A stretch of DNA of 46,250 nucleotides. Source: an uncultured Anaeromyxobacter sp. (lineage in GTDB: Bacteria > Myxococcota > Myxococcia > Myxococcales > Anaeromyxobacteraceae). Where the stretch lies: positions 1 through 46,250 of the forward strand of contig CAIVAR010000095.1 of the NCBI GenBank assembly GCA_903904005.1, read 5' to 3'. Position numbers and translations under genes: made by a program. Positions 1,745 through 3,762 of this stretch are shown here, one piece after another. Position 1 is the first letter of the stretch. Each line of letters starts with the position of its first letter. The notes under the pieces were generated by a model. It was not told the origin of the DNA. It worked only from the letters and a program-made list of their open reading frames with translations, and did not search any database.

Positions 1745-1903
1745 TCAGGCGGCGCGGCGGGGTTCGGAACGGGGCGAGTCCTCGGACGCCTCGGCCTGCC
1801 GCCTCGCCTCGACCCCCGTGTTGCGGCCGAGCATCCATCCGAGCAGCGTGCCGGTGAGCAGGCCGGCCAGCCAGAAGATCGCGAAGTGGGCCCCGGGACT
1901 CAT
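1745..1903 (-). CDS. Small single-pass membrane protein, 52 residues
   Basis: A short frame from ATG (1903-1901) to TGA (1747-1745) encodes 52 residues. A clean membrane segment occupies about residues 7-27 ('HFAIFWLAGLLTGTLLGWML'), followed by a polar, Arg/Glu/Ser-rich tail of about 25 residues. This is the look of a small inner-membrane protein with a cytoplasmic tail, but I recognise no family. No ribosome-binding site precedes the ATG. Instead the AT-rich TATGAAT box at 1918-1912 ends 8 nt before it, so the mRNA may start at or very near the start codon. It lies downstream of the reductase/heme/zinc-ribbon genes on the same strand and may be read with them as well. Coding status rests on composition and hydrophobicity pattern only. 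Confidence 0.55.
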   Translation of the reverse strand: MSPGAHFAIFWLAGLLTGTLLGWMLGRNTGVEARRQAEASEDSPRSEPRRAA

Positions 1904-1911
1904 TGTGAAAT

Positions 1912-1918
1912 ATTCATA
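1912..1918 (-). promoter_or_regulatory. -10-like box (TATGAAT) 8 nt before the start codon of the 52-residue membrane protein
   Basis: On the minus strand, TATGAAT stands out in otherwise GC-rich DNA and ends 8 nt upstream of ATG 1903-1901. No ribosome-binding site lies between them, and no convincing -35 hexamer is visible. It fits a promoter giving a leaderless or near-leaderless mRNA; this is inference from position and composition. Confidence 0.35.
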
Positions 1919-1981
1919 GACAGGATGCGCCGCCGGAAAGAAGCGTTCGATCGGGGAGGGTCCGCCTCGACCCGTTCCGGT

Positions 1982-2221
1982 TCAACCCGCCCGGAAGAGC
2001 ACGTACAGGAAGCCGACCCCCACCAGGGCGGCCACCGCCCAGAACCGCAGGTCGATCCCGGTATTGCTGGAGTCGCGCACATTGCGGGGCCTGCGGGCGC
2101 GCCAGTGGCACTCCCTGCACTCGAAGTACCGTTCCTGCGACCAGGCCCGGAGGAATTGTTCCCGCCGGCCCCGGGGCCGGGACGGGCGAACCCTCAGCGA
2201 GCCGCAAGCCGGGCAGGGCAT
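1982..2221 (-). CDS. Zinc-ribbon protein with C-terminal membrane anchor
   Basis: A 79-residue protein. Cys pairs CPAC (residues 3-6) and CREC (35-38) form a zinc-ribbon-like module separated by an Arg-rich stretch. After a short linker, a single membrane segment covers about residues 58-76 ('LRFWAVAALVGVGFLYVLF'). The topology suggests a ribbon in the cytoplasm anchored by a tail helix. No named family is recognised. The start at 2221 is chosen because it places the first Cys pair at the very N-terminus. A longer in-frame extension exists upstream but would overlap the heme-peptide gene antiphase and looks non-coding. It lies 32 bp downstream of that gene on the same strand, so it is probably the third gene of the reductase cassette. 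Confidence 0.6.
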   Translation of the reverse strand: MPCPACGSLRVRPSRPRGRREQFLRAWSQERYFECRECHWRARRPRNVRDSSNTGIDLRFWAVAALVGVGFLYVLFRAG

Positions 2222-2253
2222 CGGACCGACTCTACACGCCCGGGTGCCTTCCG

Positions 2254-2424
2254 TCAGCGTCCGTGGCAGGTGGCGCAGGTCCCCGCGCCGAAGTTCCGGT
2301 GCGTGGCCGGCCAGGCGCCGTCCGCGCCGCCGGGCGAGCGGACCGCCAGCGCGAACGCCACCGCGCTCGCCACGAAGGCGATGAGCACGAGACGGAGGGC
2401 GGCGGCGACGATGCGATGGGTCAC
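2254..2424 (-). CDS. Membrane-anchored 56-residue monoheme (CXXCH) peptide
   Basis: A short frame from GTG (2424-2422) to TGA (2256-2254) encodes 56 residues. Residues 5-28 are strongly hydrophobic ('IVAAALRLVLIAFVASAVAF'), acting as an uncleaved signal anchor. A polar stretch of about 20 residues follows, and the protein ends with a c-type heme attachment motif: Cys50-Ala-Thr-Cys53-His54, then Gly-Arg-stop. With the N-terminus inside, the motif would face the periplasm, where cytochrome c maturation takes place. No distal Met ligand is evident, so the sixth ligand would come from His42 or another protein. It begins 6 nt after the stop of the flavocytochrome reductase gene, suggesting translational coupling and a shared electron path. 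Heme attachment is inferred from the motif alone. Confidence 0.6.
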   Translation of the reverse strand: MTHRIVAAALRLVLIAFVASAVAFALAVRSPGGADGAWPATHRNFGAGTCATCHGR

Positions 2425-2430
2425 GGGGCC

Positions 2431-3762
2431 TCAGACCATGTCGAACCGCTCGGTGTGGATCCGCCCGGCGGGGATGCCGAGGGAGGGAAGGATTCGCTCC
2501 ATGGCGTCCATGAGCGGCGCCGGGCCGCACACGAAGTACTGGAACCGCCGGTGCTCGTGGGGCAGGTGGCGCCGGAGCACCCCCTCGTCGATCAATCCCG
2601 CCTCGCCGGCCCAGCCCTCGGGCGGATGCTCGAGCACCCGGACCACGGTGAGGTCGAGCCGGGCCCGGAGCGCGTCGATCCGTTCACAGAGCGTCAAGTC
2701 CGACTCGACGTGCGCGCCGTGGAAGAGCACCACCGGCCGCCGGTCCTCCCGGTCGGCGAGCGTCTCCACCATGGAGACGAGCGGCGTCACCCCCACGCCG
2801 CCGCCCACGAGGACGTAGCCCGGCCCCTCTTCCCGGTCGGGCGTGAAGACGCCGTACGGGCCGTCCACCCAGACCCGATCGCCGGGACGGAGTCCGGGAA
2901 CGACCCGTCCCGACCAGTCACCCAGGTTGCGGATGGTGAAGGCGATGGACCCGCCCGGGGCCACCTCGCCGCTCGAGGACATCGAGATCGGGTGCTGCTC
3001 GCGGTGAAAGGGGGTCCGGCCGGTGTTGAGCCAGCAGAACTGGCCGGGCTGGAAGGAGAAGCCGGGGTGCCCCACCGGGCCCAGGCGGACCGTGAACGCG
3101 GCGCCCCGCTCCCCATCGTTCGAGAGGACCGTCCAGGGTCGGCGCAGCATCGCGAGCGGACGCAGCACCCGGAAGCGGAGGATCACGCCGAGGAAGAGGG
3201 CCAGGTAGACCAGGCCCACCACCCGCATCGGCATCGAGGCGGCGAACCGGCCCAGCGACGCCACGTGGAGGACGCCGAGCCCCACGATCACGACGGCCAG
3301 GATCCCGTGGAGGAGCTGCCAGGTCTCGAAGCGGAGGTGCAGGCGGCGCCGCCCGATCGAGATCCCGACCAGGAGGAGGGTGGACCCCGCGGCGAGCGTT
3401 CCGACCCGGATCGGCCAGGGAACGCCCGGGCCGAGCCCGAGGATGGCGAGCGGGTAGCCGCGGGTCGAGAGCAGGAGGACCACGTGGGCGAGGGCGAGGA
3501 CCAGTGCCGCGAGCCCCGCCTCCCGGTGGAACTGGAGGAGCGCGTCGAGCCCGAAGGCGCCGGTCGCCTCGTCGGTGCGGGAGACCAGCGCCATCTCGAG
3601 CGCGAGCATGGTGAGCGCCAGGTAGCCGAGGCCGTCGGCCAGGTCCACGACCGGGGTGCCCGACCCGCTCCGCGGGACCGAGAGGGCGCCCACGAGGAGG
3701 GGGAAGGTCACCAGGAACGCGTAGAGGCCGAACCAGAAGATGCCGCGGACGATGAGCTGCAT
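2431..3762 (-). CDS. Ferric-reductase-like transmembrane flavocytochrome (FAD/NAD(P)H)
   Basis: A 443-residue protein with the layout of the FRE/NOX ferric reductase family. Residues ~1-200 hold about six membrane helices with two bis-histidine pairs (His79/His93 and His152/His166), each spaced as for heme b. An FAD-binding domain follows (~210-310, with the 'HPIS' motif at 257-260 and 'GPYGVF'), then an NAD(P)-binding domain ('GGGVGVTP' at 320-327, 'FVCGP' near the end). It would carry electrons from cytoplasmic NAD(P)H through FAD and two hemes across the inner membrane to an outside acceptor. The acceptor (iron, oxygen or a heme protein) cannot be read from sequence. I prefer the ATG at 3762, 18 codons inside the longest frame, because the first helix then begins normally and a G-rich Shine-Dalgarno precedes it. 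A CXXCH peptide gene follows directly. Confidence 0.85.
   Translation of the reverse strand: MQLIVRGIFWFGLYAFLVTFPLLVGALSVPRSGSGTPVVDLADGLGYLALTMLALEMALVSRTDEATGAFGLDALLQFHREAGLAALVLALAHVVLLLSTRGYPLAILGLGPGVPWPIRVGTLAAGSTLLLVGISIGRRRLHLRFETWQLLHGILAVVIVGLGVLHVASLGRFAASMPMRVVGLVYLALFLGVILRFRVLRPLAMLRRPWTVLSNDGERGAAFTVRLGPVGHPGFSFQPGQFCWLNTGRTPFHREQHPISMSSSGEVAPGGSIAFTIRNLGDWSGRVVPGLRPGDRVWVDGPYGVFTPDREEGPGYVLVGGGVGVTPLVSMVETLADREDRRPVVLFHGAHVESDLTLCERIDALRARLDLTVVRVLEHPPEGWAGEAGLIDEGVLRRHLPHEHRRFQYFVCGPAPLMDAMERILPSLGIPAGRIHTERFDMV

Follow-up and report, generated by a model that had tools for sequence, protein, structure and literature searches.

The reductase locus and its small genes

The window analysed here is a stretch of 46,250 bp, which constitutes contig C95 of genome G000 (4.56 Mb, 98% complete) of an uncultured Anaeromyxobacter sp. 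Sequence and Pfam analysis confirmed that it contains four genes, all located on the minus strand, exactly as the initial annotation had described them: a reductase with heme-b, FAD and NAD(P)H features, a signal-anchor-like peptide that starts 6 nt past the reductase and ends in CATCH-Gly-Arg, a zinc-ribbon protein with a tail anchor, and a 52-residue membrane protein. The genes and the features of the peptide are the following:

2431..3762, minus strand: NAD(P)H flavocytochrome b of the long-form ferric reductase/NOX type, 443 aa (Pfam, alignment, AlphaFold2, fold search).
2254..2424, minus strand: 56-aa single-TM micro-subunit with a C-terminal CATCH-GR tail (GTG start; kept in G003; absent together with the reductase in G002; single-TM proteins at the corresponding position in most relatives).
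2341..2403, minus strand: predicted TM helix of the peptide, approximately residues 8-28, N terminus inside (Kyte-Doolittle; AlphaFold2 helix; Arg4 and Arg11 on the inner side).
2263..2277, minus strand: C-A-T-C-H heme c attachment motif with Cys50, Cys53 and His54 (sequence; DNA identical in G003).
2299..2301, minus strand: His42, a candidate second axial ligand (conserved in G003).
1982..2221, minus strand: 79-aa zinc-ribbon protein with a C-terminal TM helix, a neighbour probably outside the module (persists in G002 without reductase and peptide; dN 0.32).
1745..1903, minus strand: 52-aa membrane protein, a neighbour probably outside the module (homologue beside the zinc ribbon in G002; none in the G003 locus).

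On the plus strand, positions 490-1724 encode an M48 peptidase and, after it, a zinc-ribbon protein of the TFIIB type, in the same order as in congener G002.

The reductase matches PF01794 (E 1.4e-11) and NAD_binding_1 (PF00175, E 1.4e-20), both over the cut-off, and the heme ligands His79, His93, His152 and His166 are each at least 90% conserved in a 15-row alignment. Its AlphaFold2 model (pLDDT 81) displays six TM helices followed by the FAD and NAD domains, and the closest solved fold is that of SpNOX (8qt6; Z 30.6, rmsd 3.2, 392 residues aligned). A pair of His ligands for each of two b hemes, together with C-terminal FAD and NAD(P)H domains, places it among the bacterial long-form FRD/NOX enzymes. 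In this enzyme family electrons pass from NAD(P)H to FAD, then to the inner heme b and on to the outer heme b. NOX members form superoxide and FRE members reduce metals; the gene context of the window reductase pointed to no particular acceptor. Plasmid-borne relatives of the reductase are annotated as 'ferredoxin reductase family protein'. The same genome encodes a second FRD protein (G000:C20:23713-24057, L001), and the micro-ORF profile described below gave no match in the stretch around it.

The stop codon of the reductase is followed by six nucleotides (GGCCCC) and then by the GTG start codon of the peptide, which lies in the same frame and is preceded by a weak ribosome-binding site (GAGG, four bases ahead of GTG). 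The 56 residues of the peptide (MTHRIVAAALRLVLIAFVASAVAFALAVRSPGGADGAWPATHRNFGAGTCATCHGR) comprise one hydrophobic helix, with a Kyte-Doolittle value of 2.84 over 17 residues starting at residue 12, and a tail in which His54 is located two residues before the stop codon. Of the 92,496 codon positions in the six frames of the window, only 3 have the pattern C..CH.

Conservation and joint absence of the reductase-peptide pair

Congener G003, the nearest reductase-bearing species, possesses a reductase that is 76% identical to that of the window, and the CXXCH frame recurs beside this ortholog at the same place, ending in CATCH-PGGR (MPHRIVATAIRIVLLSFVAAAVAFALSVRSPVGGDGAWPATHRYFGARTCATCHPGGR), so that the conservation on which the initial annotation depended is found in this species. 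The substitution pattern likewise identifies the peptide as coding and under purifying selection: between G000 and G003 its dN is 0.130 and its dS 0.435 (p 0.0014, one-sided, on counts), corresponding to a dN/dS of approximately 0.3, while the values for the reductase are 0.164 and 0.558. The tail is the most conserved part of the peptide (dN 0.068, dS 0.324; p 0.023 for the tail alone); the DNA of the CATCH motif is identical between the two genomes, and His42 is conserved in both. The zinc-ribbon gene evolves faster, with a dN of 0.32 against G003. Elsewhere in the reductase family the search for a CATCH peptide returned only weak matches (E 0.018 or worse), the peptide of this form being found in G000 and G003 only.

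Neither the reductase nor the peptide has a match in the genome of a third congener, G002 (98% complete), which retains the flanking genes in order: a beta-barrel-like gene, the zinc ribbon and beside it a homologue (72% over 25 aa) of the 52-residue protein, the TFIIB-type zinc ribbon and the M48 peptidase. Approximately 50 bases are present where the reductase and the peptide are expected; the last of these can be aligned to the 3' terminus of the gene for the peptide and translate to T-C-H-E-R-stop. Since the peptide is kept beside the reductase in G003 and both are missing from G002 with intact flanks, reductase and peptide form one module. The simplest reading is that G002 lost this module by deletion as a unit, in which case the C-H-x-R ending would date to the common ancestor.

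The four genes had been presented as a group, and of this grouping the pair of reductase and peptide, which are absent together from G002, is upheld. The zinc ribbon and the 52-residue gene do not belong to it: in G002 the former and a homologue of the latter persist in the absence of reductase and peptide, which rules out a single operon module of four genes, and a search of the 9.3-kb G003 locus gave no homologue of the 52-residue protein. Two further candidate explanations were examined and rejected. The CRECH sequence of the zinc ribbon in the window is not a second heme site, as G003 has CRDCG at this position and the gene outlasts the loss of the reductase. Nor is the peptide a longer cytochrome truncated by a frameshift, as only about 30 nt separate its stop codon from the next gene in both species.

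Single-helix frames beside related reductases

Homologues of the reductase were collected from five phyla (Actinomycetota, Chloroflexota, Acidobacteriota, Myxococcota and Pseudomonadota). The ORF directly downstream, usually less than 25 bases away and often with a clear Shine-Dalgarno sequence, encodes a single TM helix, and in most cases is only 28-38 residues long, as in Nonomuraea (MRHLYTTRAVFLITLLLVLASAAFAVVTNA) and Dehalococcoidia (MRHIYTRWVMLGTSALFLAASFVFALLRNA). Among the Anaeromyxobacter relatives a bare frame of 30 residues (MRQRLALLSAVATGIALLLAAVLFALARRS) is located directly upstream of the reductase (L011-L017, L019 and L020), so in this family the gene order changed and the pairing was kept. 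Over the 88 distinct reductases of the survey, whose rows include close relatives and are not independent of each other, a bare micro-ORF was found at approximately 39 (30 downstream and 9 upstream), a TM helix with a cytochrome c domain at 10, the CATCH form at 2, and a TM helix with a DUF4142 domain at 9; a further 8 Pseudonocardia rows were provisionally given this last label, the frame being at a larger distance in some of them, 2 rows were labelled 'other', and no partner was detected at 18, among them the close relatives L039-L041. The loci of the latter three contain no convincing CXXCH frame that could belong to a nearby cytochrome gene.

The helix extends into a class-I cytochrome c in Myxococcota (L018, L021-L024), in Ardenticatenia and a second genome of that phylum (L042, L077), in a gammaproteobacterium (L045), in Acidobacteriota (L088) and in Actinomycetota (L111); Pfam searches on representatives of the five lineages assigned these domains to Cytochrom_C/CBB3. 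In Pseudonocardia (L046-L061, L069) the place of the cytochrome is taken by a TM-anchored protein that follows the reductase and that was recognized as DUF4142 by Pfam on representatives; this domain may be an electron acceptor or a partner domain. Downstream TM frames of 29-35 residues with a different N terminus were observed in the Pseudomonadota loci L067 (Sulfitobacter), L095 and L098, and may represent a second type of micro-ORF.

The association with the reductase was compared with 685 other long ORFs taken from the same fetched loci. The test for an adjacent bare ORF was positive for 32 of 90 reductases versus 5 of the 685 controls, and three of these five are themselves members of the micro-ORF family adjoining a reductase. 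When all six-frame ORFs of all loci were searched with a micro-ORF profile, every match below E 1 was adjacent to a reductase, and HMMs built by leaving one group out found the adjacent micro-ORF as the best match in the other six groups, with some members weak or missed. For the window pair held out of the HMM the scores were not significant (E 2.1 for G000 and E 0.065 for G003), while the value of E 0.0011 for the window peptide was obtained with the peptide itself in the training set. By position, the peptide is a single-TM frame directly beside a reductase of this subfamily, and the best reading is that it belongs to the micro-ORF family by position, topology, anchor size and joint loss, and not by sequence score.

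A maximum likelihood tree of the 88 reductases places that of the window in a group of ten with 100/99 support. This group holds four TM plus cytochrome c systems, three reductases without a detected partner, and L043, in which a bare helix is followed immediately by a gene for a secreted cytochrome c. As cytochrome-bearing anchors occur within the group, the CATCH peptide fits the description of such an anchor trimmed to its heme motif; the reverse history, in which a bare helix acquired a motif, is possible.

Neither Pfam nor NCBIfam has a model for the micro-ORF, which is also missing from the gene table of two plasmid records, a table that PLSDB calls incomplete. Micro-subunits as such are a known kind of protein, CydX being an example (PMC4325964). 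In the literature searched, which largely excluded subscription journals and preprints, we found nothing relevant on a small subunit of a bacterial ferric reductase/NOX, on the annotation name or on DUF4142; the combination of a NOX-like reductase and a conserved one-helix partner with exchangeable domains, in this case down to a bare heme motif, appears, provisionally, to be undescribed there.

Proposed function and comparison with known systems

Judged by the sequences compared, the conserved element is the anchor helix and not the CXXCH motif, most relatives possessing only a bare helix of about 30 aa; the peptide would thus be a micro-subunit first and a heme carrier second. The initial annotation had proposed a periplasmic heme relay. 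This proposal gains support from related reductases beside which a true cytochrome c, held by a TM anchor of the same kind, occupies the equivalent position, and is modified in that the motif on which it was centred is not the element that is conserved. We consider it reasonably probable that the peptide serves the flavocytochrome as an accessory micro-subunit of one helix, whose minimal c-heme tail receives electrons from the outer heme b.

The reductase would move electrons from NAD(P)H via FAD and the two b hemes to the periplasmic face of the membrane. The helix of the micro-subunit, with its N terminus in the cytoplasm, would pack on the membrane domain of the reductase and aid assembly or stability, as CydX does for cytochrome bd and p22phox for NOX2, and in many relatives its role may end there. 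In the present genus, the C terminus would emerge near the outer heme as a periplasmic tail of approximately 25 residues, to which the cytochrome c maturation system of the host would add a covalent c-type heme at CATCH, with His42 as a potential second ligand. The exposed heme c could then accept electrons from the outer b heme and hand them to a soluble periplasmic acceptor, a task that in related systems falls to a complete class-I cytochrome c domain and here would be done by the minimal CATCH motif. The heme and the relay are predicted features of the peptide.

Several observations bear on the individual steps. SpNOX reduces cytochrome c directly (PMC5676040). CcsBA attaches heme in vitro to CXXCH peptides of 9 and 11 residues (PMC8112865), almost every exported CxxCH is a substrate for the Ccm System I, and the Em of exposed bis-imidazole-like hemes is near -215 mV (PMC6962350). 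The host genome encodes four Cytochrom_C_asm proteins, which is permissive for heme attachment only. An AlphaFold2 model of the read-through frame of reductase and peptide has a helix at 449-475 (pLDDT ~64-80, a moderate confidence) and a disordered tail; it came without an inter-domain error and is uninformative on docking. The fold search gave no match to the partner helix, an absence that proves nothing. Weighing against the favoured reading are the non-significant held-out score of the window peptide, the occurrence of the CATCH form in two genomes only, the 18 reductases with no detected partner, some of them close relatives, and the absence of a class-I cytochrome fold and Met ligand.

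The peptide could also be a purely structural micro-subunit, its tail being what is left of a former cytochrome c domain and carrying no functional heme, a reading that agrees with the bare helix of most relatives, with a tail that lacks both a heme pocket and a distal ligand and that the model leaves disordered, and with the full cytochrome c domains of the nearest relatives, which make a truncation plausible. A freely drifting remnant should have accumulated more replacements at a dS of ~0.4; however, the tail is the best conserved part, its motif DNA is identical in G003, its replacement sites are constrained, and the scar in G002 still reads T-C-H-x-R-stop, so that we regard this reading as unlikely. 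Less likely still is that CATCH is a metal or thiol site (Fe, Cu or a disulfide) presenting metal to a ferric or cupric reductase. The bacterial FRD/NOX family does include metal reductases (PMC3591440), and CXXC with a His is generally able to bind metal or form a disulfide; however, where the host encodes c-type maturation, an exported CXXCH would be expected to receive heme, and true cytochrome c domains are present in relatives at the place of the peptide. Cleavage of the N-terminal helix as a signal peptide at the A-F-A site, releasing a free periplasmic heme peptide of ~30 residues, would agree with the sequence AVAFA-LAV, which fits the signal peptidase rule, and is very improbable, as the bare relatives stop a few residues past the helix (e.g. 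MRHLYTTRAVFLITLLLVLASAAFAVVTNA) and cleavage would leave nothing, which makes the helix itself the product. Finally, the short frame, GTG start and weak ribosome-binding site could be those of a functionless chance ORF, which the rarity of C..CH in the window, the conservation of frame, motif and motif DNA in G003, the control counts and the G002 scar contradict almost completely.

Beyond the accessory micro-subunit with a c-heme tail favoured for this locus, a broader proposal is put forward more tentatively: a subfamily of these reductases in at least five phyla may have a single-helix subunit of ~30 residues as the anchor to which interchangeable periplasmic acceptors (cytochrome c, DUF4142) dock, the acceptor being reduced in the present genus to a bare CXXCH tail, which would rank among the smallest natural c-type heme proteins. 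Bacterial NOX-like enzymes serve as models of the human NADPH oxidases, and if a sister subfamily does have a conserved micro-subunit that annotation misses, this would change the purification and assay of such enzymes. With cytochrome c and DUF4142 domains attached, the question of the periplasmic electron acceptor becomes directly testable, and a natural minimal c-heme tail, if true, would reveal how little protein suffices for a heme relay.

The reductase shares its six TM helices, the four His ligands of two b hemes, and FAD and NAD(P)H domains with SpNOX and the bacterial long-form FRD/NOX enzymes (8qt6; PMC5676040; PMC3591440). SpNOX is described as independent of a p22phox-like subunit (PMC5676040), whereas the subfamily described here has a micro-ORF partner. 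Similar to the micro-ORF, CydX, which belongs to cytochrome bd oxidase and has 37 residues in E. coli, is small, encoded with a redox enzyme, poorly conserved and often unannotated (PMC4325964). The micro-ORF is not identified as CydX by any Pfam or NCBIfam match, and the adjacent gene is the reductase and not cydAB. We know of no CydX with a c-heme tail or a cytochrome fusion. Like the proposed micro-subunit, p22phox of NOX2, which PMC3591440 mentions, is a small membrane partner of a NOX/FRD flavocytochrome; it is bigger than the micro-ORF and has several TM helices. With the membrane-anchored class-I cytochromes c (PF00034/PF13442), true members of which are found beside related reductases, the peptide shares the anchor helix and a periplasmic CXXCH; however, it ends two residues past the motif, without the helical fold of ~80 residues and the distal Met ligand, and the ~30-nt gap before the next gene holds no remainder of a cytochrome. 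A parallel to the proposed heme c on a short peptide without a pocket is provided by microperoxidases and CXXCH tag peptides (PMC8112865, PMC6962350), which are artificial or proteolytic products, whereas the peptide of the window would be natural and anchored in the membrane.
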